Shown here piece by piece: positions 1 through 21,623 of a stretch of DNA of 64,000 nt. The notes under the pieces are model-generated. The model was not told where the DNA came from. It made no database searches and saw only the letters and a program-made list of their open reading frames with translations. The stretch comes from Branchiostoma floridae (Eukaryota > Chordata > Leptocardii > Amphioxiformes > Branchiostomatidae): positions 5,172,729 to 5,236,728 of the forward strand of contig NC_049995.1 in the NCBI RefSeq assembly GCF_000003815.2. Direction: 5' to 3'. Every line of letters begins with the position of its first letter. Positions within the stretch are counted from its first letter, which is position 1. Both the position numbers and the translations under genes were made by a program.

Positions 1-3000
1 AAACAAGACTAAGATCTCCTAAGCTGTTTCCACCATAAACAGCCACATGTGGAGGTCTACAGGACGCGTCCCATAAATGACCAGCTTGCTTGGGAACAAG
101 TTTCAGAGCCAGGCTTTGCACAGAGCTTATGTTCTTTTTCATTTCTAACCTGATCCAGTGCTGCAATTGAATAAAGGATAGAAAATATTTGTTTTTTTCA
201 CCAATATTTAAACGATGGTAACGTCCCTAGAACCAGTGTGGCAATAGCGTTTTAAAAGGTCTGATGCAAAGATCGTACACTGAATGATGTGATAAAGATT
301 TAAGGAGAGAAACGAATGACCTAACTAAAGTACCTTTCCTCCCTCTTGATCACTGCACCAGCAAGTATCATCCCTCCCATCCAAAAGATGTGAACTGGTT
401 GTATTAGAATATGTCGATGACACTGATATGTTGCAATCATTGGTTGTGATCTGCTTCAGACAATCTGAAACACAATTATGTTTTCATAAACATGCGCATA
501 TAGGATGATCCTCAAGAAATTATGTGTAAAAACATTTAGATTAAATACTTAGCACTTAATGATATTTAGATTAACTACTAATTTTTTCCGTACGTACGTG
601 CAATTTGTCCGTACGTTTTTTTGGGAGGCCACGTCCGCCACGTATTTCTAAAAACGTTAATGCTGTACAGGACAAGCGCGTCGCCCGTACTGCATGGCAC
701 GTACGGGGGCGAATCCGCAGCTCGATGGTTCACTAAGTTTTGCCTGCACGTAAAGTTCTACCGCGTGTCTGCGTGCTCCAGAATCCGTCGGATTCTCTAC
801 GAGTTCGTACGGAGGCGGTACGTTCCACTTACGGATCCCAAAAGATTGCCTACGTTTGGCACGTAGACAGCACGTATTTGCACGTACGGCGGGTTGTGCC
901 CTTAGCCTAAGTGTCAATAACATACTCCAAATTTTCCATATTGTTAGATACACTGTGTAAAACTCAACAGTAGCACATAAAACAATGATTCAGCAACATA
1001 CCGATCTTCAGGCGCAGTGGTTCACTCCAAGGACCGTACACTCTGCTCACGGCCGATCCACGAAAGCCTCGCACTTGACACACAACCGCGCACGACTCTT
1101 TTGGTAGAGCCAAGTTATACCGGGATTCCTGAATGTCAGACACAGTAACCCACTTGTCTCCATCATCTTCTTTGAAGTCTTCTTTCTGCCACTGTAGTTC
1201 ATGCCGAGGGATTGGTCCAACGAATACGTTTGCACTTTTGACATCTTCCCAGGAAAGGACAATGTTAGTGCCGTCTATGGTGTGGTCCAGAAATTTTGAC
1301 TGACCTGTAGAAGAATGCATATATACATAGGACAATTAGCTTCAATCACAGATAGAATCTAGTACCTACTAGTAGAATCTACATGAAGAGGTCAGACTTC
1401 ACATTGTAGGGCTGTCCAACCACTCAGTTTATACTCTGCTGTTTGGATAGTGTATATTTAGTGAAATGAAGTAATAGTATACACCGAAATAAAAGAGAAC
1501 ATATCAAATTACTTGAAGAAACTTCTCCTGTTTACAGTGTGTGATTTGGTAGGATATAAAACATCAATAGTGACCTGGAGCTTGAGTCACACACAGCTTC
1601 TTCAGGACCTCCGCAACACTGCTGAAATCTGGAGACGGAAATTCTCCATCACATGGTAGTTTAAGATGACCCTTAGTCGGTGTAGTCTTGGTTACCCTAG
1701 ATACATGTCAGACAGGGGAATACGTTTGTTAAATTAAACTATTGCATAATGTCACAATCCTCGTTGACATTGTCAACAAAGAGACCAAAATACGAATAGA
1801 TTCAAGAGCACCTCAGGAGGAAGCCAACAAAACATAATTGCTTACCTGTCATTTGTAGCTTTAACAGCCTGGAAGTGAAACAATAAGGATGGATGGTATA
1901 AGATAAAAGTAGCGGTATACAACATTTGGTACACGAATATCACAATAAGTGTGGTACTTTTAAAACCGCCTTTTTTTTCAAATTTTGATTTACTAGTACT
2001 TTTATTGAAGCAAAAATCATGGATGGTGAGACCGACCTGTAAGAAGCAGGCTTGATCCGTTTCCTTAGCGACCTCATCTGCATATGACGTGACGGCCTTA
2101 CACGTCTTGAGTTCGTCCTTTCTCTTGGTGTCTTCCTGTTCTAACCTGTCCATCTTCTCCTTCTCCATGTCCCGACTCTTCTCAAGCATGACATCACGTC
2201 TCTCTTGAAGGATGCTGACCAGCTCGTCCATGGCGCTGTTGATTTTCACTCTCATCTGCTCTCCTCCGTTCTGTACAGGCAAACGTTAGTTGTTTCCAAA
2301 TGACGTGATTTATGCAAATGTATGCATGGACAGTGTTTAGTCCATATGAAGAGATAGCACGCTATACCATGCCTAGATTGGGTTCAGTGTGCCTAACCTT
2401 AAATGCTCTTTGGTTAAGATTTGATATTGCTGCATCAATATGCAAATGTATTACAATGCCACCATGTTCCATATCGAACGAACTTGCATTTAAAGCATAC
2501 CTTAATCCATTCTCCCTCTTAAGGCGTACAATGAGGCAATTAGGATAGTTACCTTTACTTGCTGTTTCATTTTATCCAAGTCGTTGATGAATGTTTCCAG
2601 ACTTGACATCCATGACTTCAGCTTCAACACATTACTGCCGAGGTGCTCCTGTCATGAAGAGTAGAAAATCATTTCTTAGAAGGGTATTTAACGTTATATA
2701 CTATACATTGACAAATAATCAATGTGCTACGACATCAACATGTTAGAGATGCAATATTGGCATTCTACAACGCACCATAAAACACAAAAAATACAGTTAT
2801 TTTTGTATTTGCGTGTGTAAGAGAAAAGTGCAAACTTTAACGCCCGTTACCTTTTTGACATTGTACTGTGTGGATAGTGCTGCCACGTCATGTTCCTTAT
2901 GTTCTCCTACCAACTTACAGAGATGGCAGATCGGAACTTCACACACCATGCAGACCAGGTTTACCTGAATTAGGATAAACACTTAGACTTTTAAAGACTG

Positions 3001-4573
3001 TTAGTTAAAGCTCCTAAAGCTCCACTTTATCCTCTGAATGTAGTTCGAAGTGTGCAATGAATTGATGACTGATATACAAGTATGTGTATAGACATGTACA
3101 AGTACAGTCATGCTATAATGCTATTCCTACATTTGTACTGCTATTTCGGCAATGGCACAGTAATGCTTCGGCAAGTAGACAATAGTACAGTGTCTTGGAA
3201 TTGGTTTATACAAACATCTTTTTGCTTCCAAGTGTAAATAAGGTCCCGTAAGGTTCTGTATATAAGTAAATATCAAGTTACCTTCTCATCATCATGTTCA
3301 GAACACATGACGGTTTTCTTCTCAGCTGTTGGTTCCACAAGCTGATGTCTGGCAAAAACACCTTTCCTCGGATGGTAGTTAGACAGGCACGTCTCGCAGT
3401 ACTTCACATTACACTGAACACAGAGCTTCACGGCTGGGGAGGGGGGTTCTTCCTCACAGATCTGACAGGGGAGGACCTGTCCCTCTCCTCGACCTGCATG
3501 GTGTACAGAATGTACGATACGCCAAAAAGCAGTTACTCAAGCAACTGGATATGATTTTTGAAGCGGTCAGACGTTTCAGGTAGCATAGTGTTCCTATATC
3601 CAAAATTTGCCTTCAACTCCTGTGCATATAAATTCATACTTAAGAATAAAATCTGATCATTGTCACTGATAAGTGGTAGTGGATTCTACATGAAACGTCT
3701 GACCGTTTCCAATATCATATTCAGTTGCTTGGATAACTACTTTCTGCCCTACTCATACTATACATGGTTCGGTGCAGTGCAGTGCAACAAGACCAGCTGT
3801 TGCCACGCCAAGTGCATGCAAAGCTTGTATATTATATCCCGAAGGACGTTTATTATATCAACCATACAGAACCAGACCTGCGGCTTTGCGGTACCGTTCC
3901 ACGATGTTCTGGAGGAGGATGTTCCTTCTCGGTGTTGCCGCTGCCCCGCCAGGACTCAGGTCGGCTTCCTCTCTACACGTGGGGCACAGGAACGGCTCCT
4001 CTGTGACGTCAGGGTCGGAAGACTGGGAACTTTGAGAACTAAGAGACCCACTTTCCTTGCCAGGCTCTGAGGCAGCTTCGGCCCCATTATCAGTCTTCTT
4101 AAGAGACCTGTTTTAAGACGTTAAAAAGTACTTGTAAGACAGTCTAGCCTTTTCTTTCCGTCGAAAAAGGGGCGAGCAGAAAGGTGACAATATAACATTG
4201 TGTACTACTGAAGTGACGCCTGTAAAAATGGCGACAAACGTCCACAGTGCACGCTTATATGCTTACGTTGTCTCAGTGACTGAGATATACGTGGCACAAA
4301 GAAAAGAATACCATTATCATAACAAATATCTTTACAGTAATGTCACACGGGAAAGACACATCCATGTTGAATGTGTGGACAACCAGTACTGCCATACCCC
4401 ACCCACCCCTTAGGATTAAGGTTACAAGGATCACGGCGGCAACGGTCTTACGTTTACCTGCGCATGTTGTCAAAGCACCTGCGGCACAGGTTATGCTGAC
4501 AGGGCAGCTGCAGGGGGTCCTCAAACAGGTCCAGACACACGGGACAGGTCAGCTCCGACTCTAGAGCCTCCAT
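1..4573 (-). CDS. MID1/MID2-like TRIM E3 ubiquitin ligase with C-terminal FN3 and DOC (APC10-like) domains, partial
   Basis: Eleven exons on the minus strand join in phase: 4458-4573, 3878-4107, 3282-3493, 2851-2964, 2553-2648, 2037-2270, 1846-1868 (23 nt), 1575-1696, 1002-1304, 334-464 and <1-160. They give about 580 codons and run off the left edge. Start is ATG at 4571-4573 ([13 protein letters not shown], close to MID1). RING ligands are C10, C13, C25, H27, C30, C33, C80 and C83, with a Ser/Glu-rich loop before C80. B-box 1 covers about 125-165, B-box 2 about 176-215, the coiled coil about 225-335, a COS-like segment 340-382 and FN3 383-483. From about 484 a DOC-type fold follows: a SST/LLDG/CW motif, then HWIRLEM, then [13 protein letters not shown] proteins are microtubule-bound E3 ligases that end in SPRY; here DOC lies where SPRY is expected. 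Family assignment is strong; the substrate is unknown. Confidence 0.88.
577..905. repeat. CGTACG-rich element with short terminal similarity
   Basis: This stretch lies in the TRIM intron between exons 9 and 10 and is dense in cgtacg and cacgta. The two ends share ccgtacgtgcaa in inverted orientation (around 588 and 885). It looks like a small non-autonomous DNA transposon, but no clear target duplication could be fixed. Confidence 0.35.
3530..3740. mobile_element. Two inverted Penelope-like 3' ends with a hammerhead-like core
   Basis: Arms 3530-3582 and 3686-3740 are inverted copies of the same ~53-bp sequence, which contains gaaacgtctgac and cagttgcttg. Just before the right arm, CTGATAA (3666-3672), a TGTAG/CTACA-type stem and GAAAC (3692-3696) resemble a hammerhead ribozyme core with one core mismatch. 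Penelope-like retroelements are known to carry such motifs. The pair sits in TRIM intron 2. A third relative is at 55918-56040. Confidence 0.5.
3765..3868 (+). mobile_element. LINE 3'-end fragment
   Basis: This is a diverged copy of the sequence at 7565-7660, sharing accagctgttgcc-like and ccgaaggacg-like blocks. It lies only a few bases from the TRIM exon 2 donor. Confidence 0.4.
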
Positions 4574-6901
4574 GGTGAGGGGTAAAAAAGGACGAAGACG
4601 ACCCTACTGAAACTAGAAGCAAAGGTTTCGGACTCGATACTTCCGGGTGCACTGGCCTGTGGATACCTTTGACATACGAACCTTAGCCGCTATTGTGTTT
4701 GCTTTACTGGCTGCACTGAAACACGTATGAAATTTGGGGTTTTGAAAAAGAAAATATAAGCTATGTTAGGCCCTCTTTTTAATTATAAACAGGACAACAT
4801 AATCTTTTGAAAGACTAGATATGAACGTCTGTAGCCGTCTTTAGGTAGACAACCTACCTAACTTTATTAGTAATCTCCAAGCAGATGTTGGGAAAAAGAT
4901 TGGAATGTTTCCTGGTTAACGACCAGGCTTCTATGATGGTTAGTTACGCCTTATTAGCATAGTAGTTATGAGACTTGAAAACCTGAATATTCCTATGTTA
5001 GATTTAAATTCGTTATCTGATAGTTCTTTTGTCTATCTGCTACTTAAAGGATCGGCTTTACTGACATCTGATATAAATTCCGAAATTCTCTCCATAACTC
5101 AATCATATTTATCCGAAACAAAACGATTTTGAAATTGCTTTTTGACTATCCTTATCATTTACTATTGGTAACATAAGTTTATCCGTCCGTTTCTTTTTAG
5201 AATTCGGCGTTCCCGTACCCGTTTCATCTTTTTTGTCCTATGTTGTGTTGTTATTTTGTCTAGTGGTGTCTTTAATATAAGCCTGTGTGCTTTAGTGGGG
5301 GCACCACTATGTTTTGTACTGTATTAATGTTGCAATAAAAAAACAAATAAGAAAAAAAATTGTTAAGGGAGAAAAACAGGATGTCCTCATATATTCTTAA
5401 CCGACTCGTTTCAGACGGAGGCGATGGTTGCGGTTCGATAGGTGAGTTTATTATGTTCAGGTCGAGAGTTTACAACAGCGGCACTATCTTAGCTCAATTA
5501 AGCCATGTTGATTTCATTATATGGATGACACCCACAGGGAACTCCAAACCTGATGCGGTTCCATGGGGTGTGAACTCATGCTCACCCGAAAGAAGTCTAC
5601 TCTACTCTACTGTACCCTAATAAAAAAAGGCCCCCCTCCCAACAAAACTCTGAAAGTCGCCTTCATTATGAAACCTTAGTGGTCAGGAAGATTGAATAAA
5701 GGACTAAACACAGGGTGTAGTAAACCAAACACTAGATTATCATTTTTGTTCTGTCACACCTTCTTGGACTTTACTTTGGAACTCTATGACGTTAGTATCC
5801 TTGTCCTCAATTTTTATTTAAGGCATACATTTGCTCATTTTACATGTATACAGCTGCTTTGTACGATTTACCGTATGGTTGAAAATTTAATTTTGGGGGG
5901 CCTAAAATTGATGCGCGTTGATGTCATCCATATAATCACATCAACAAGGCCTTACTAAACTTGGTAATAATGAATGAAGCACAATATCATCATCTTTAAG
6001 TTTTATCATTCATGACAGAAGTGTCGTGATGGACCCGGTAGAAACTCAGTATTCGGCCGCTACCTGCTCGGCCACAACCTGAGTGTTGGAGAAAACAAGA
6101 CAAACGTTAGGCACTTACCAAAGTTGTCGTCAGTTCATTACAATATGGAGAATTAGCATGAAAGCCGCTCATCTGTGTTGGTTTGATCCATTTTTTAGTT
6201 TGTAACTTTCATTCAACACAAGCAAGTATTACTTCATAAGGGGGGGGGGGGGGTGAAGGCGGTCATCTACAGAAGAACACGCCAGCCGACACTCAACTGA
6301 GACGGGGGGATATACATTGTTTGTATATATATATCTTGCCAGGCATTTACGATTCATTACTCGAGTCACGTGTCCTTAAAATCACGCGCTCAGAGTAATT
6401 GAATCACCATTCCAAAAGAAAATGGATGTGTGACTGAAAATTCGAGGTGAGCAACTTGTGTTGAAGGAAATTCCAACACGGCAAATTGTGTAACACTCCC
6501 TTGTAGCCATTCCAACGAATTATAAAGAATCCAGTTAACACAAGGTAGCTTAATGCACCTTACCGTGAAAGCCAAAAATCAGTATCACGATATATTTCAA
6601 TTATAGATACAATACAGCAAAATACAGCAAAATATTTCTTATCCTTGTACCATTCCACATGCCTCATAACTATTCGAAGGTATCACCAGGTCAGGTAACG
6701 ACTTACTTAAAGTCACATTTCCAAAACAAGGCTCAGCCGTGCAGTTTGCGGAAACGAAAAATACGTATAAAAAATACACACAAATGATGCCAAAGACTTT
6801 TCTCTTTACGTCTTGTGTACTTTGGTGTTTCTTACATCATACTTTTCGTTACCGAAAGCTGTCCGGTCGGGCCCGGGCGCCCCTGTTGGAATGATGTGAC
6901 A
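4574..6901. other. Intergenic, no gene seen
   Basis: This lies between the start of the TRIM gene and the stop of the carboxypeptidase-like gene. It holds a hAT-like end motif at 4871-4889, a probable LINE tail at 4985-5345 and a run of G at 6241-6253. No exon could be supported. Confidence 0.6.
4985..5345 (+). mobile_element. CR1-like LINE 3'-end remnant
   Basis: An open stretch ending near 5130 reads like the last residues of a CR1-type reverse transcriptase ORF (LSDSSFVYLLLKG, then YLSETKRF and stop). It is followed by an AT-rich tail ending in caataaaaaaac. No upstream RT is left. Confidence 0.4.
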
Positions 6902-9900
6902 TTATCCTACCAGAAGCCCTGCGAAGAACTCGTCGGCAGAAGGTCGGATTTGGTCGGCAGGTAGGACGAAGCCGTCACGGAGCTGGATGGCGTAGGAATA
7001 CTTGATTCCGGCCACGGTGTAAGCCCAATCACAGCTGGATCCTCCCACCAAGCCGTCTGAAAAAAAAAGCCCCGTTTGAAACATTCTGTTGTCTGATTAG
7101 AACATTCACCTGCGGACATAAAATTACTAGAAATGTAGGAAAAGGTTGGCGACGATTGCATTTTAGTGAAGTTTTCTTTTTGTGGTACAATACGTATTTT
7201 CTGTTCCGAACACTCACTGATGTTGGCGATTGTTCCATGCATGAAACTGATCCCGTTGACAGAGTAGATGGCGCTTACTGCCCTTCCAGCAAGGTCATCC
7301 TAGAGAAGGAATTTCAAAGGAGTTAGTGGATGAGAAAGGTGACAATATTAATGTAGATGCTGAGATTGGCATATCAATTGGTTTCAATAATCGACTACAG
7401 TAGAGTTACCAACCTAGGATTGATGTGTTCAAAAATTCGTATTTTCCCAGAACTATCGTAGAGTGGAACTTGTTATCACCAAGCACATTAGGGGCATCTT
7501 CTCTGGATAGTTTTAAAGAACGCTTGCAGATAACTGTGCAAAAGTTAGGTGTGGCGGATCGTTCAGTGTAATATAACCAGCTGCTGCCGCATCGCGTGCC
7601 TGCGAAGCTGGTGTGTTACGCCGAAGGGCGGTTATACCGGCTATATAGATACAGATACAGATACAGTAGATCGAAGACCTGAGTTCCAGACCAATATCCC
7701 CGCAATAGTACATGTAGATTCTATTTTTCAAAGGTCGAGTTTTTCAACCTCCTTGGTCAGCACTCATCTTCCTCAGGTTTTAAGTAACAATCGAAGGCAG
7801 TGTCCCTCACCTGTTCCTCATAGTCTGGCGCTGAGTTGAAGGTCCAGCCGTGAGGGGTCATCCACGTCTGACCGGAGGCGTGCACGCTCAGGTAAGCCTT
7901 CAGGTTGTCGCTGTTCTCCATGACCAAGTCGCGGACCGCCTTTGTCTCGGGCTCGGAGAAGGCGACCGGTCCGTGGTAGATATCAGAGCAGGGGTCGTCG
8001 CTGGGGCTAGAGCCTGGAAACCACACACGTACAGCTGTCAATCATTATTTTGGTTGAAGGACGTTTATATCCAAACTTTCGTTTACAAGTAAGACGAAGG
8101 AAAACTTAGATTTTACCGACCTTGAAGACAGCAACAGACGTGGAAAACTACTTGTTCCATAATGATTTTGAATACCTCTCAGCAATATGTAAATTACGAA
8201 TTAGTTCGCACCCGTTAGAAATAGAGAGTGGACGATACCAAAAGCTACCTCTTCAGGAGAGATTTTAAGCAGTGCACAACGAATGCGGTGGAAAATGAAA
8301 CACATTTCATTTGTGAACGTCCCAGATTCGATGCCGAAAGAAACAGACTATTCGAAAGAGTGGAAAGGGTTATGTCTGAATCTGTATATAAAAGTCGTTT
8401 ACAGTATAACGTTAGGTCACCTTTATCCGCGGGGTAACCTATATTCGTTGTGTTAAAAAAATGTGTATCGATATCTAGGGATTTCAAATTGAAATATTTC
8501 CAAAATATTGCAGTATAAAGCTACCGTCTTTCGACTTGACGATCCCAAATACCCTATTCTTAAATACAACGGATATACGTTACCCCATGGATAAAGGTGA
8601 CCTAACGTTACTACCAAAGTGTACGTCCCAGTTACGGTTGGCGTCGACTCCGAAGCACAGCCCCCGGACGGAACGAGTTTTTTTCCACATCCGGTCCTGG
8701 TACCACGGAAATAAAAAGTTTTGATGAAAAATCATGCAACAGATTAACCTGTTATGTTGTCACCAAGGACGTCTTGAATAATGTGTCTAAACTTTTACTA
8801 AGGCCACATGGTCTTAATTTTATGGATGACATCCTCTGGAGACCCAAAACTAATGCCCGAGGGTGAAGAAAGAAAGTCCAGTGGAAAATGCTGCTAAAAC
8901 ACAGGACTGAACATCTAGACCCTTCTATCCCAGCCTTGTTTTTTTTCTTCTTATGTTCCCGTCCAGCACGACTGTAAGAGACAACCGTCACCATTTCAAT
9001 AATGTTTTTATGGCCATTCTTGTTTAAAGAGGGGAAGAATGGCGCAGTGGCCCCATGTCCTTAATCGCGGTGGCAAATTTTACCCCTCTGCCGGCTGAAG
9101 TCCCTCCCCAGCTTATGTTACTGTTTTATGCCACCGGAGGAATCTGCTTGGAGATTACCATGTCCTGACCATGTGACCAGGTATGCTGTTGGGTGACATG
9201 TGGCCACAGTTTGTTTTGTTTTATTTTCCAATGCAACGACAGGCGAAAATCAATGAGCGATCAGACATCATCCAGTGTGGCCTTATCTCCAGCCATATCT
9301 TCTAGTGACAGAACCGGATGATCTGCCTGGAGATTAAATTTTTACTGCCTACTGTCGGTGCTCTCTCTACTGCCGAAGAAAATTCGGGGTGGATACCAGC
9401 TCCCCTCTCATGAATATTTCAAATTATCTGGTTGCAAACTAATTTGAACGAAACACTATTTTGTTAACGACCAAAACTCAAACAAGATAGTTTTTAGAAA
9501 AGCTGACCGCGGCCGAAGATGGGAAATTAGAACTGGTTGGGTGTAGTAAGTGTCGTGAGCTCTTTCTAGTGGAGAAGAAAAAAATGTTAAGCCGAGGGGC
9601 TTGGTGGGCATGACTCCACCGTCAAGGAAAGTCGGGCACAACGTCGGAGAAAGGACATTATATAAGATATGTAATCTTTTGTAATCTTTTATAATGTCCT
9701 TGGTCGAAGGCATGGTGAATATCGAACCTAGAACCTCTTGGCTCTGAGCCGAATTTTTAGCCGGGCAGAAAGCCACCAAAATATGCTCGCTAAGCGACCA
9801 CTACCATTGATGACGGACGACTGATGGCGCATGATGTAACTAGCCTACCGACCAATCAGAAAGCTACAAAGGTCGTCTTTTTTCATTGGTTGGCAGAAGA

Positions 9901-12900
9901 ATTGAAATGAACGGGCCAGCAAAAATAAAATGTTTTCCTTCGGAAACATTATATACAAAAGCATGGAAACCACCATAAAAGTCAAGAATTGAAATGCACG
10001 AAGTGACTGTGATATTTCGTTACTTACCTCCGTGTGAGTGAAGACGTATCCGTCAACGTTGGTGACCGGAATGAAGTAGAAGTCCACCTGGTCCATAAGG
10101 GACGTGATCTGGCTGTCATTGCCATAGCCCTCCAGTAACTGGAATGTACATATTTTGCATTTCTTGGGTTGCATTTTACACGCCCTTTTTTGGCCTATAT
10201 CCAAAATTGTAAGTGAAACATACCGTGATTAAAGCACTGTTATTTTCGGAACTACTGGCAGTACTAGGTAACACATGACGTGACTGTATTTTTGCGTAAG
10301 GTAAACGTTGTATTTGCTTCGCCTATTTCTGTATACCCGTACAAGCTGCCTATCCGGACAGATTTATTTGATCCACTCGCACCGGGAAGGGCCCCTGCTT
10401 TTTTCGATAAGTGCGGTGTGTTCTTTAACGTGATCGAGGTGTGGCTGTCCTCAAACAAGGGAGACGGCCCTAACCGGTGAAGCTAGGTACTCATTGTCAC
10501 CTCAGTGAAGTGAGGAAAGTTGTGCAAAGTGTCACAAGTGCACAAGATCGGTGGCACATCAACGATTGGAACCCAGAACAATCTAGCAACCTGACAACTG
10601 TGCCACATGACCCGACATTGCGTCACCAAAGGTTGTCTGTTTTTTGCTGCTTGCTCGATCACCTGGTGACAAATGGCCCTATATGTACTTACGAACTTGA
10701 TGTTGTACATCAGAGTAGCAGACACGATCCAATCCCGGGCGTGGAGCTGTCCCTCCAGTAAAACGGCGGGCTTGTTTCCACCAGCGCTCCCCACCTGTGC
10801 GCGAGAGTAATACTTACATAAATAAGAGACATTACCTTAAAGTTTTGTTTCAACCTATATCGCCGCACAAAACAGTATCAGATCTTCAATCTGGCATCAT
10901 ATTGAATGAATCTTGACAGAGTACTACAAAAGTTCATTCCCGATACAGTGTACATGTACTCAGCTGATGTCAGCACATTTATGAACGAATCATCACACCT
11001 TGATGGCTCTGATATAGTAGCCTTCATACGTGGTTCCGATGGTGAAGACGGACGCCAGACTGGGATAACTCGTCGCGAAGTCTGTTAGCTGCGAATCGAT
11101 CTGTGGAGAGAAAGTTGCGACTCAAAGTCAAAGAAATTAGAAAAGTGGAAACTAATAACATAATGTCTAATGACACGATATGGACAATTATCATATAACG
11201 ACATCGATCAATCCGAAGGTCCCATCTCAATTCGGTTTTGACGCCGTAACACATAATTGCAACGAGCCGGATGTTAAATAAAAAGCACCGGATCCAATCA
11301 GAAGGAGCAATATACAGGGCATTGACCAATCAGACCACGTCCGCCATTTTCGAACAGGAATCATGGGTGAGAGGACTGCACAGTGCATTTCTTTTCGTCA
11401 AATTCGAAACCTCAGACTCATTTTCGAGTCACTGTAAGCTTCCTCCACTGGCTTCTCTGTGGGCATTGACCATTGTCGTAGCTAGGGGCGAACTACCCGG
11501 CATGTATTCCTTTCCCGGCATATTTTTCTTCCCGGTGTATTCCCGGTTAAAAATCACATCTTACCCAGAGAGGCCGGTGAAGGAGGCTACTGTAAGCTGG
11601 GTAAGTCCAAGAGCAACAATCAGTGGCTGACGGTCGGAAAGTTGAACATTTTGACCGGGAAAAAATGGGCAAAGCGGAACCTCGGGTAGTTTGGATAGGC
11701 TATATGGTAATATGATTCATGACCAGTGGATTAGGTAGTTATATATAGCAAATGACTTGGTGTTATTACACCATATACACCTCGGGGCGGGTCATTAAGC
11801 CTTAAATTTCGAATTGCACACGGTAGAATACCTACGTCAGCATAGGTGTTGTAGTCGTCGAAGTTGAAGCCTACGGCGCGAATGTGGCGTGATCTCGCCA
11901 TATTGATGCTTTGTTGAAGGTCATCAACCATCACCTTGTGCAGTACGGAAAAAAAGCATTATTGCCTTAACAAAAAGTACAGTGACTTTCGCATGGTCGG
12001 CTATAAACTACAAAGAAGGGACACAGAAAAAAACTTCAAGTTTTACAGACTAAACAATATAGGATAAAAAATACAATGAGGTGGGGCTAACGTTAACATT
12101 AGTGTCATTATTCTTTCTAATAACAAAACAATCTTTTGTGTATTTGCATGTAGCTATATCAGTATTATGTGTGTGGTCTCAGTATTATAAAAAAACATCA
12201 TTATGATAACCATCATCAAGGGTCGCTAACCATTGCGAATGATTATTCACAGGAAACGACTGGAGACGCGAAACATTCCCGGCCTACCGTGTACTTCATG
12301 CCAGTCTTCTCCAACAGGGTCTTCACTTTCCTGAGGAGATTCTTGGGCACGCGCACATCCACGGGACAGGAGAGGCAGGTCGGGCCCTTCCAGAAGTCAA
12401 CCTACGACAGCAAACAAAATCATTTCGCTCAAGTTAAACTAGAATCTGGGAAGCGAACGTTTGCATATAGAGTTAAAGAAAGCTAGAACTCACTTCCACT
12501 AGATGTTTCATCCACACAAACAAACACTAGTGTAAAAGAATTGGGTGACCCCTGGCCTCCAACCCTTACGACATGGCACGGATTATGAGGATATGGTTTT
12601 ATGACTTTATCTTTTTGTAAATATTGTTTGTATTGTGTGTTCCTGGGGTCTCAATAAAGCAGTCCTATGTCATGGATGAGAGCTATCCTGATGAAAGAAA
12701 ACAGAAATGAACAAGAGTTCGGAGAGCTCATATCTCCATGAAATAGTCTGAATATGTAAATGACCTCCACATTTACATAATTTATGCTTGGTTATGTACA
12801 TCTTTTGATAACTTACGCCGGTCACAATGTTGATTGTCCAATAATTTATCAATTAGAAGAATTATAGCACTTTTACATGAATTATGCAAATTATAATTAG

Positions 12901-14925: not shown

Positions 14926-17366
14926 GAATCAATCTTACAACAGTTACTGTTTGTGAAAGCATTTTGCATACAAGTACAAAATGTACGTCCTTAAACTCGA
15001 GTGGTCCCTTCTACAGCCCTGTCTGGTGGCAAATCAACTCGTATGCATCAGGAGCTTAGCCTGGGTACCCACCATACTCTAAATTGTGTGGGAAGGGTAT
15101 AGGAGCCCGGTAAACTAACCAGGGTGACACTCATGCTACCAAGAAGTGTTTACTTGCTGTCCCCACAATATTGCAGTATTCACGCATTTCATATCAGTAA
15201 TAGTTGATAGTTCAGATTTCTCGCCACCGTTTAGTACGCATACGCGGATCCAGTCCGGAGGAGTGAGGTACGCAAGTCTGGAATACTGGGACTCAAAGTC
15301 AAAGTAGAACTTCACAATACATTTATGCGCGCCCCCCGGGGTCTGTGACGTGGGTATATAAATTTACATAAATTTGAGAGGTAGTCAGATATAGTCTGAG
15401 CTACATGGTCATGGCATGTGTCGAATTTGAGACTGCATGATTTGGATTGCGAAGGTTAAAATACTTTCCCTGGTCGCCATTTTGTTCTGACATTACCAAA
15501 CATTTGATCGGACAATCGTTCCAAATAGTTGACTTCTCATGGACAAATAAGGCATCAGTATAGTGAAAAAACACAGAGAAGAAATTGTCGACTTACCTCA
15601 GTGTGAAAGGAAGCTGTCTACAGTCTGCAAGCTGCTTAAAATCCCAGGGAGTCTGTCTTAACTATGTCCTTAAGTGTGCCCTTCAACTCTGCACTGACTG
15701 AGGTAGTTGGACTACCTGAGGTTAGCCGCCTATTGTCTTATATGCCCACAGGCGATACCTGAGATGTGTCACCCATGTGGACATGATGCGATGTATGTAA
15801 TCTTCTGTCATGGCTCGAAATTCTTTTTTCTACACTGATTTTTATCTAACATATTACACTGTTGGATGAATGTAACAGTGGACCTGATGAGCTTTGAAAA
15901 AAATATTTTAAGTAGTTGTATTACCTGTAATCCTATTTTTTCTGTGACGTCATGGTCGGAAGGCTGGGAACTTCGGGAACCCGGAGGTACACTTTCCTTG
16001 CCTGGCTCTGAGGCAGCTTCGGCCCCATCGCCAGCCTTTTAAAGACTGTATTAAGACGTTATAAGATACCCGTAAGACAGTCTAAGACTGCCGACAAAGC
16101 TCAGGCAGACAGAGGGAATCGCACATTTAGTTGAGATATAACAAAAAGGAAAATTACAAATCATTAACTTTCCATCATGCCAATGGCAAGTCAGCTCCAA
16201 CCCTATTCTGCAAGATATTTTACACTCTCGATTTACTACAACTATCAGTCGATACATATAAAGTCTATAACACAAATACAAACACTCGAAAAAAAACTGT
16301 CCACACGGTCCAAATATGCAATTCAGAAGTTGGAGAAACAACTGTTGATCGCCTTGTCATAAATCCTCAACATGCAAAACTTGTCTAACACCAAATCCTC
16401 TGACAGGGCGTTCACACGACCACCGAAGTTGGGCGACCTCTCGTCAGGATTCATCCAACCATGAGCGTTGAATGAACTTTCTTTAACCGCATTGCATCTG
16501 TTGAGCCTGAAAAGTCTTTAAGTTGATTTGTCCAAATGCCTTGATGTACCTCAACAGGACCATGCCGTACGCTCGCACCAGCTGCAAGAAATACAGAAGG
16601 CTTAACGGCTAAACAAAGGCACATAGATACATACGGGACGTGTACGTGGAATGCGACATACAATTGGACATCTCCAATGAACAAAAGAAGGTGTACAGGT
16701 CCAATACTTCAAAGCACAATGCTGTGATGTGCCGCGAGGCACTTTGTCCTGAATCACAAAGAAGAAATTATCAAGTACTAATGATCGTAGACCTGGATAA
16801 CAAAATGCTAATAAACAGAGCCCGCTATTACAATACACTGTATAAAATGCTCACCTTGTCACATGTGGTACGACCATCAAGTCATTGTGGACATTTCTGG
16901 AAAACCAGGTATTTCCTCAGTTTCGGAATGTCTTCTCTTCATACGTCCTATGTTACACACAGAAAGATACCTTGTATTAGGACACTCATTCGAATGTCCC
17001 GAAGTTTTTTGTCAAACTGATTTTCCATGGTTCACACTAAGTGAAAAAAATTATAACGCTGTGAAACAGACGATACTTGAATTAATGTTCTCGAGGTGAT
17101 TATTACCACAGTACGATACCTTGTCAAATGTCTGGGGAAGGCCTTGTTGTCATGAAGCGTCGGTTACGGCGACGCAACTTTCCGTTTCGTACACCGTCGT
17201 TGCCTTCGAGAAGGGTCGTTGCCAAATCTAAGAACGCTCGTTGCCTTTCTAATAGGCGATGCCATTTTCGAGCGACCGATCTTAAATCCCGAGTGCTCGC
17301 GGCATGTTCGTGAAATATTCATGAATTCTCGGAACTCTTAGTATTGTGGGTATGCATCCCTTGAAG
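14926..17366. other. Intergenic, one TRIM exon relic
   Basis: Between the carboxypeptidase promoter and the hAT-like MITE I see the TRIM exon copy (15941-16084) and no other supported gene. Open frames at 16451-17099 overlap each other on both strands and resemble nothing known to me. Confidence 0.5.
15941..16084 (-). pseudogene. Duplicated fragment of TRIM exon 2 with its intron flank
   Basis: The sequence matches 4000-4146 over about 145 bp with scattered changes. It covers the Ser/Glu-rich RING loop part of exon 2 ([12 protein letters not shown] is kept) and continues across the splice acceptor into intron 1. The RING cysteines (CPTC) are not in the copy. Because intron is included, it arose as genomic DNA, not by reverse transcription. 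Confidence 0.75.
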
Positions 17367-19212: not shown

Positions 19213-21465
19213 CTATCTTATATAAGCTGTCTCGTCTTGGTTAACGGACTTAATGGTATTGTCTAGTGTTGCCATTTCCCTGCACAAAACTAAAGCGCTG
19301 ACCACTGTCTCTGAAGCTGTATCATAAACTGAAGCATCCGCGCAAACGTCTTCAGCGATTGGCAACTCAATGTCCGCTGACGTTGCAGCGTAGAAAGTCC
19401 CAGTCTCACTGTCCTCGTTTTGTGGGTCCTGTGCAGAAGAATCACGAATGTCTTCGCCGTTTATTTGAGAATAGTCGTGCCCAGTTGGAACATACACTTC
19501 TTCGTCGTTTATTTGAGAATAGTCGTGCCCAGTTGGAACATACACTTCTTCTTCGTTTATTTGGTTGTAAGTGTTGTCGTCTGGTTGACACAAGTCGGGC
19601 ACGCCCCCTGCCGGGGACCTTTGTACTGCATTACCTTCGTACATTGGATTACTTTGCAAAACATGTTCGATATTCATGATGTTTGCTAGTGGAATATTTG
19701 GGGGGCTGTTGTTGCTTGTTCTGTCAGGATTTTGATTTTTTCTACTTCTCTTTCGGTAGTAACACAAAGCAATGAAGCATACCGCAACAAGACAACCCAC
19801 AACCACAGAAGTTACTATCACAGGAATCGTTAAATCTGTGACACCATCTAGAGTCATGTGACTTTGTGTAGAAAATACCGGCACTTCGGATGTCACCAAA
19901 ACTCTATTATTTAGTGATTGTTTTGTCTGATGACTTCGTTTGTAAGGATTGGACAAAGATGTGTTGTCTGGTGTAACAATTTTGTTACCAATACTGTCAG
20001 TAGTGGCGGTATATGTACTGGTGAATGTTGCATCTTTTGCGTCAGTGTTAACCGCTTGAACACATTGAGACTCATGTATTGTGGGCGCATCCTCAATAAA
20101 AGAAATCCGTTTCTGATCATGAATGATAGTGTAACATGCTACTAATGATGGACCGGGTATAGAATTCTTCGTTGTGTATGCCACCACACTTAAGTCTTTG
20201 TAACTTGTTTCTACGCCAGAAAATCGCAAACTCGACTCTCCCTTCAAACCCAAATTTATGCCGACTGGCTCTTTCCACGCCTTCAAACAGCGACTTGAGA
20301 AAGACTTGTGCTTTTGTGTTTCACCGTTCTGTGCAATGATGACGAAGGGGTGAATCGTTTTAAAATGACCCAACCGAATTTCTTCAGACAATGACTCACA
20401 ATTATTCTCCAACTTGTGGATGTTTTTCTTTCCATCCGACATCTCGTACCAATCTATACTGAACACGTTTCTCGTTCCTTCATAGTTGATATGCAAAACC
20501 ATGCCAAACGCCTCAAATCGTACCCACTGCTTCGTTTCTGTTGGATCCGGCCGCGGACACTTCTTCAAAACAACATTCCAGGCCGCACCATACCTATTAT
20601 CTGAGTCGTCTAGAGAAGTGGGCCCGCTGAGCTCGAAGTCAGGCGCAAGAAGTGCATTTTTGTGCACACATACCAAGTCGTTGTACGTTACATCAAGAAT
20701 CTCCAAATCTTTCAAATAGTTAAACGCGTCTGGTGGTATCGCTTTGATTCTATTTTTCCTCAGGATAAGTTCTCGTAACCCACCCAGACCAGCAAACCAC
20801 TGTCTACGCACTTCTGATAATAAGTTACCTTTGAGGTCTAACACATGAAGGTTTTCTAGATTTTCGAAACATCCTCGTTCCAAACTGGAGATTTTGTTGT
20901 AAGATATCGAAAGCCAGGACAGATTGTATTTGTCGCGTGATTTTGAACCACTGTACCAGTTTCTGGGTACGTGAGTTAACATGTTATTATAATCTATATG
21001 CAATACTACCAATCTAAAGAAGTCTTTAAACGTCGCGTTGCCTAGATCAGTTATTCCCGACTGAATAAGAGAAAGAGTTGTGAGTGAAGAGTTGTCGATC
21101 ATTGCTAGTTTTTGTGACGATAGTATCCCGTATTGTAGCCCTCTTAATAGGAGCGTTTCCGTACCAAAAAAGCATTCTCTTTTTGTATCGTTTACCGTTT
21201 CGACAGAATGACTTTGAACATCGGAACATGAAACGCATAGTGCGTTCTCTACATAGAATCGGCTAGTATGCCATCTGCTGTAGTGGTTATTGTATAAGCT
21301 ATTGTCGCTTAAGCTTTCGTTGTCAGGAAGGCAATACATATACTGCAATTTCCTTTCACATGTTGGAAAGCAGTTCTGTTCTGTAGAGGCATTTGATAAC
21401 GTTGCCAAAGCTATTACGATCAAAATGAGACATTTAAATTGAAAAATCGGATTCATTTTGGACAT
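19213..21465 (-). CDS. Intronless LRR single-pass receptor with ITAM-like tail repeats
   Basis: One exon encodes 750 residues; I start at ATG 21463-21465, with a second Met three codons on. A signal peptide (residues 1-27) is followed by Cys-rich LRRNT-like sequence (CFPTCERKLQYMYC) and about six leucine-rich repeats (roughly 125-270) with LxxLxL and N/G phasing. An LRRCT-like Cys region and about 250 residues of unknown ectodomain come next. A membrane helix at about 545-570 (VIVTSVVVGCLVAVCFIALC) precedes a basic stop-transfer and a 180-residue tail. The tail holds YNQI, YSQI and YSQI spaced by 12 residues within a 16-residue repeat (EEVYVPTGHDYSQIN), plus FYAA, VYDT and a C-terminal YIR. 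Such receptors are numerous in amphioxus and often thought to be immune or adhesive; function here is inferred. Confidence 0.9.
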   Translation of the reverse strand: MSKMNPIFQFKCLILIVIALATLSNASTEQNCFPTCERKLQYMYCLPDNESLSDNSLYNNHYSRWHTSRFYVENALCVSCSDVQSHSVETVNDTKRECFFGTETLLLRGLQYGILSSQKLAMIDNSSLTTLSLIQSGITDLGNATFKDFFRLVVLHIDYNNMLTHVPRNWYSGSKSRDKYNLSWLSISYNKISSLERGCFENLENLHVLDLKGNLLSEVRRQWFAGLGGLRELILRKNRIKAIPPDAFNYLKDLEILDVTYNDLVCVHKNALLAPDFELSGPTSLDDSDNRYGAAWNVVLKKCPRPDPTETKQWVRFEAFGMVLHINYEGTRNVFSIDWYEMSDGKKNIHKLENNCESLSEEIRLGHFKTIHPFVIIAQNGETQKHKSFSSRCLKAWKEPVGINLGLKGESSLRFSGVETSYKDLSVVAYTTKNSIPGPSLVACYTIIHDQKRISFIEDAPTIHESQCVQAVNTDAKDATFTSTYTATTDSIGNKIVTPDNTSLSNPYKRSHQTKQSLNNRVLVTSEVPVFSTQSHMTLDGVTDLTIPVIVTSVVVGCLVAVCFIALCYYRKRSRKNQNPDRTSNNSPPNIPLANIMNIEHVLQSNPMYEGNAVQRSPAGGVPDLCQPDDNTYNQINEEEVYVPTGHDYSQINDEEVYVPTGHDYSQINGEDIRDSSAQDPQNEDSETGTFYAATSADIELPIAEDVCADASVYDTASETVVSALVLCREMATLDNTIKSVNQDETAYIR
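19466..19570 (-). repeat. 48-bp coding tandem repeat in the LRR receptor tail
   Basis: The unit encoding EEVYVPTGHDYSQIN plus one residue occurs twice, with a partial third (YNQIN). The two units are nearly identical at the DNA level, so the duplication is recent or homogenised. Confidence 0.8.
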
Positions 21466-21623
21466 CAAAATTCTTTTTGTTGGAAAATGTTTTGATAGTG
21501 ACAGGTTCTTCTTAACGTTTCACGTGGATTTGCAATCTTAAGCTAGAGCCGCAATTTCATTTTTCTTCAAGTGTCTCGATTTAGAAGAATTTGCTTATTC
21601 TTATATGGTTCTTATTTCTTCTT

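Follow-up and report, generated by a model that had tools for sequence, protein, structure and literature searches.

The TRIM ubiquitin ligases of subgroup I (MID1/MID2, TRIM36, TRIM46, TRIM9 and TRIM67) share the order RING, two B-boxes (B1 and B2), coiled coil, COS, FN3 and SPRY. DOC domains are found inside other ubiquitin ligases, and HECTD3, CUL7, CUL9 and APC10 resemble in this respect the gene described below. HERC2 is a HECT ligase, and the catalytic parts of the HECTD3, CUL7, CUL9 and APC10 ligases are HECT, cullin-RBX1 or APC/C, not a TRIM RING. The DOC domain of HECTD3 is necessary and sufficient for association with CRAF/HSP90, and APC10 takes part in degron recognition (PMC5489699). 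The CUL7 DOC domain binds FBXW8 within its assembly (PMC9507964), and COS directs subgroup I TRIMs to microtubules (PMC8773809). The present locus is a TRIM gene at the beginning of a 64,000-nucleotide stretch of Branchiostoma floridae DNA (the window; contig C17:5172729-5236728). Its sequence indicates that it very probably encodes a MID-type TRIM ubiquitin ligase with a DOC domain at the C-terminal place held by SPRY in MID1.

Gene model and C-terminal domain

Gene models were drawn from genomic DNA using AG/GT borders and reading phase. The window gene lies on the minus strand and has 12 exons (Table 1). Eleven of them lie between the start codon at window 4573 and position 1, with AG and GT at every border after the start codon, and the gene ends 562 bases past the window start. 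All 12 exons join in phase and encode a product of 639 residues followed by a TAA stop. The order in the protein is RING, two B-boxes, coiled coil, COS-like stretch, presumed FN3 (read by eye) and C-terminal DOC. Codon scores were best in the coding frame, out of six, for exon 10, exon 11 and the joined DOC part.

The original prediction had read a DOC-like C-terminus from exons at 464-334 and 160-1, joined to an FN3 exon (1304-1002). All three exons were confirmed on the minus strand; they have AG/GT borders and in-phase joins, and the quoted letters were found. Residues 484-580, to which the domain had been assigned, are the DOC part within the window, but the complete domain has 156 residues instead of 97 when the parts encoded by exons outside the window are included.

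The 156-residue domain was searched against the PDB with phmmer at an expectation value (E) of up to 10. Nine sequences were obtained, six of them DOC (HERC2, HECTD3 twice, CUL7, CUL9 twice) with E from 2.2e-12 to 0.0016. HERC2 was the best match at 2.2e-12, and HECTD3 reached 6.6e-6; the three other rows had E values of 0.5 to 1.4. A DOC hidden Markov model (HMM) was made from the human HERC2, HECTD3, CUL7 and CUL9 segments matched in the PDB. It gave 61.2 bits for the window domain and 41.9 for the window part alone, and the best of 5,000 shuffles reached 10.3. The corresponding domains of two further TRIM genes, on contigs C8 and C4, scored 36.0 and 42.5 bits, compared with 6.8 for the best of 4,000 shuffles. 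The C8 domain matched HERC2 (1e-4) and HECTD3 (0.0017 and 0.019) first in the PDB, followed by four unrelated rows with E of 1 or more. A profile of the three TRIM DOC domains matched 11 PDB sequences (E up to 1), all of them DOC and five of them APC10.

Pfam ANAPC10 matched the complete domain with 22.1 bits at a cut-off of 21, and remained below this cut-off for the window part alone (19) and for the 580-residue protein (14.1). ANAPC10, the PDB, the HMM and the three-gene profile thus all supplied the profile match to DOC on which the predicted identity depended. PDB searches, HMM and profile placed the sequence nearer to DOC chains than to other galactose-binding-like folds. A plain F5/8 discoidin identity was rejected because the PDB matches and the three-gene profile point to DOC, although the F5_F8_type_C bit score points the other way.

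TRIM front end

Residues 1-483 gave 39 distinct PDB sequences at E up to 0.001, with MID1 (2jun) first. The B-boxes were nearest to this entry (E 1.3e-26, residues 123-217), in agreement with the MID-type front end that had been predicted. Four Pfam RING models were above cut-off, and the RING has eight zinc ligands; a 13-residue stretch and CPTC were read in the sequence. Pfam zf-B_box matched two stretches (38.1 bits) and ANCHR-like_BBOX scored 31.5 bits. TRIM_CC gave 27.9 bits for the coiled coil at a cut-off of 30, and 16.6 bits in the C8 gene. COS was the sole Pfam family matched by the COS-like stretch, and its scores in C8 were 15.7 and 17.0 bits (cut-off, 27.1). Coiled coil and COS gave ten PDB rows, all unrelated, with a best E of 0.085.

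The FN3 label of exon 9 is based on reading by eye and on position, and a genome search with this exon matched only the exon itself. Neither residues 1-580 and 484-639 of the window gene nor the 561 residues of the C8 product gave a SPRY match with E of 1 or less. The RING, the B-boxes and the DOC domain of the predicted order RING-BB-BB-CC-COS-FN3-DOC (BB, B-box; CC, coiled coil) were confirmed; FN3 was undetected by profiles, and COS remained below cut-off.

Second and third genes with the same join

The genome searched comprised 513 Mb in 431 contigs. Of the eight matches to the window domain, three are exons of the window gene and a fourth is a remnant of exon 12. A further match is an exon that resembles HECTD3 by eye (L031), and C8, C4 and C1 have one each, that on C1 with a stop. 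In C8 and C4 the match starts at query residue 44, the border of exon 11. The C8 gene is a complete TRIM gene that runs from its start codon through RING and DOC to a stop, with 12 exons in the model and 561 residues, and it holds a 23-nucleotide (nt) microexon of the same length as window exon 7. The C4 gene was read in part, with the RING outside the stretch read, and has B-boxes, a coiled coil, a COS-like exon and two DOC exons. FN3 was not found in C8, nor in C4 as far as read. Because both genes repeat the TRIM-DOC join, the DOC exons of the window gene are not those of a neighbouring gene, a possibility that the original prediction had named against itself.

Identity between the window gene and C8 was 116/211 over RING and B-boxes, 50/149 over coiled coil and COS and 37/139 over DOC. 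When the genome was searched with the C8 domain, C8 and C4 each had three of the nine matches, and the others were the window gene (E 0.018), the HECTD3-like exon and one match on C10. The weak C10 match (C10:19725443-19725628, E 0.064, 40% identical) carries a stop and is perhaps a DOC gene or a fragment.

A single ancestral subgroup I homologue is described for invertebrates (PMC8773809). Among 100 scored candidates, at least 54 exon-level matches to MID1-like B-boxes were found at E up to 0.001, so the B. floridae genome seems to hold more MID1-like B-box genes than one ancestral homologue. Clusters of such exons at C9:13644704-13657728, C18:12013702-12031140 and C5:19841290-19858149 are probably tandem TRIM genes.

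Origin of the DOC exons

The HERC2 DOC segment had 15 matches in the genome, of which those at the C7 locus were read. There the DOC exons are split at SGSQGK/HWIRLE and DVTE/YYRFLE (the slash marks the intron), both in phase 0, and the entry intron has phase 1, provided that the preceding CACAG acceptor is the one used. The window gene is split at EGGK/HWIRLE and LDK/VYRCFE, also in phase 0, with DOC entry in phase 1, and C8 at HGTQ/HWLWL and AEK/PCLKL with phases as in the window gene. Both introns inside the DOC part thus agree with HERC2 introns in place and phase. The HECTD3-like exon is not interrupted at HW, and HECTD3 was therefore rejected as donor. A tree of eight DOC sequences grouped the three TRIM domains with a support of 92/97. 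An insertion of five aligned columns is occupied in each of the TRIM domains, whereas the remaining five sequences have gaps there.

The matching introns, the TRIM group in the tree and the shared insertion make entry of a HERC2 cassette into a phase-1 TRIM intron the simplest history. These comparisons give good support to a HERC2-like gene as the source of the DOC exons, which would have been captured as an exon cassette by way of a phase-1 intron; most simply the capture would have happened once, before the three genes parted. Given its phase and length (Table 1), exon 9 can be lost or gained without a shift of frame, as seen in C8. Partial copies of DOC exons are repeated within an intron of the HERC2 locus on C7 (L041, L043), and a second set of HERC2-like matches on contig C156 is perhaps an unmerged haplotype.

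It is probable that a MID-type TRIM captured the HERC2 DOC exon cassette once and gave rise to a class RING-B1-B2-CC-COS-(FN3)-DOC of three genes or more, where the substrate module would be a DOC receptor instead of SPRY. The cassette would have entered a phase-1 intron of a MID-type TRIM, with duplication of the gene afterwards. In the product the RING would recruit E2-ubiquitin, the coiled coil would make a dimer, and the COS-like stretch may put the ligase on microtubules. By analogy with HECTD3 and APC10, the two DOC domains of the dimer might hold a substrate or a partner or adaptor.

Contrary evidence and alternative explanations

Several results weigh against the proposed structure and origin of the gene. 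The window domain matched C8 and C4 only weakly by themselves (E 0.033 and 0.29), and F5_F8_type_C outscored ANAPC10 on the window domain (24.0 vs 22.1 bits), although under its own cut-off of 28.2 and limited to residues 13-54. The C8 domain alone had no ANAPC10 match, and its top score was F5_F8_type_C_2, below cut-off. The COS-like stretch of the window gene reached only 16.4 bits in Pfam COS at a cut-off of 27.1, FN3 was not detected in exon 9 by Pfam, and this exon gave just three unrelated PDB rows (E 0.95 or more). For exon 12 the coding frame is not the one with the best codon score. HERC2 has one further intron, after RLRMQ, which is absent from the TRIM genes, and the tree has no outgroup and a bootstrap support below 95 for the TRIM DOC group.

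Some of these scores could instead mark a domain that is related to DOC but has lost the role of holding substrate for a ligase, and that works as a scaffold or, like discoidin, as a module binding glycans or lipids. The F5_F8_type_C and F5_F8_type_C_2 scores would fit such a module, as would the one NCBIfam row, below cut-off (NADase_discoid, 21.1 vs 38 bits), and the binding of FBXW8 by CUL7 DOC. This is unlikely, however, given that every PDB sequence found with the three-gene profile was a DOC domain of a ubiquitin ligase and that the first non-DOC row for the window domain came at E 0.5. Two separate captures, one in the line of the window gene and one in that of C8 and C4, would account for a DOC identity between window gene and C8 that is lower than that between window gene and HERC2 (40/108), and the support of 92/97 for a single group also counts on this side. 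Intron places and phases are nevertheless identical across the window gene and C8, and the insertion common to the TRIM domains is absent from HERC2, HECTD3, CUL7 and CUL9, so that a double capture is distinctly unlikely.

The DOC exons might instead be alternative, with a main product that ends after exon 9 by intron retention and a minor DOC form. Read-through of the exon 9 donor would add a short tail before a stop, and TRIM42 is given as R-B1-B2-CC-COS-FN3 (R, RING) without SPRY (PMC2533329). The splice donor GTATGT and the acceptor TTTCAG are sound, however, and DOC is the part retained in C8, and in C4 as far as read, where FN3 is missing; a minor DOC form is quite improbable. That exons 10-12 belong to a separate gene or stem from an assembly join is highly improbable. 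A partial copy of the last exon does lie downstream, but exon 10 begins inside a codon and the reading phase is kept throughout; the neighbour's exons and the assembly join were both rejected because C8 and C4 repeat the join.

Exons and surroundings of the window gene

Table 1. Exons of the window gene and the last DOC exon of the C4 gene. Positions are those of the window unless a contig is named; negative numbers lie before the window start.
Feature	Position	Strand	Content
Exon 1	4458..4573	-	Start codon, first part of RING; Pfam RING models
Exon 2	3878..4107	-	Loop and last Cys pair of an 18-residue stretch
Exon 3	3282..3493	-	B-box 1, start of B-box 2
Exon 4	2851..2964	-	Remainder of B-box 2
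Exon 5	2553..2648	-	Coiled coil
Exon 6	2037..2270	-	Coiled coil, beginning of COS-like stretch; weak Pfam COS
Exon 7	1846..1868	-	Microexon of 23 nt, COS-like stretch; equal length in C8 gene
Exon 8	1575..1696	-	COS-like stretch
Exon 9	1002..1304	-	Presumed FN3 (by eye); 303 nt; both ends in phase 1
Exon 10	334..464	-	First DOC exon; entry in phase 1, exit in phase 0 ahead of HWIRLE
Exon 11	1..160 (window part)	-	Second DOC exon; continues to -58 (L005 9942)
Exon 12	-443 to -562 (L005 9557-9438)	-	Last DOC exon, ends in TAA
C4 last DOC exon	C4:29913186-29913275		Last DOC exon of the C4 gene

Tandem copies were sought in 284 kb around the window (E up to 0.001), and only remnants of exon 2 and of the last exon were found besides the gene. 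The exon 2 copy is degenerate and lies about 11 kb upstream (window 15937-16047, minus; 37 residues, 68% identical, with a stop), and the partial copy of the last DOC exon lies at L005 8663-8845, minus.

Several zinc carboxypeptidase-like exons were recognized by eye at window positions of about 6060-11960, minus. A single open frame of 768 residues (19216-21519, minus) resembles, by eye, a leucine-rich-repeat membrane protein. A gene that resembles a kinase by eye runs on the other strand towards the TRIM gene, with exons at L005 about 2059-5900, plus.

Comparison with known ligases

TRIM ligases are classed by their C-terminal domain, and a DOC tail is absent from the human TRIM lists consulted. 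The human TRIM table of PMC2533329 has no DOC in its domain key, and the words DOC and APC10 are absent from the text of that paper; APC10 is likewise absent from PMC3503706 and PMC3137616. In PMC5712786, APC10 serves to illustrate the F-type lectin fold, and the word TRIM is not used. No TRIM with DOC or APC10 appeared in the titles and abstract openings of the literature searched, of which the coverage was partial. The earlier statement that no TRIM with this order is known agrees with the papers named here, against which it was compared.

The window gene resembles subgroup I in its RING, two MID1-like B-boxes, coiled coil, COS-like stretch and presumed FN3, and differs in its C-terminal DOC and in the lack of a SPRY match (E up to 1). 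The nearest parallel among lancelet TRIMs is subfamily C, whose B. floridae members have two MATH domains and likewise gained their C-terminal domain by recombination, although both the TRIM subfamily and the domain are different (PMC3503706). If the reading is true, a small single-chain RING-DOC ligase would be available for seeking DOC-domain ligands.

The TRIM DOC is most like that of HERC2, which was its best PDB match, shares two introns in place and phase, and has 42/108 or 40/108 aligned residues identical (human HERC2, two alignments). It differs from HERC2 in an extra insertion, in the missing intron and in a tail of its own. A true DOC-tailed class would show that exon capture can transfer a substrate receptor from one type of ligase to another, here HECT and TRIM, and that matching introns are left as the trace.

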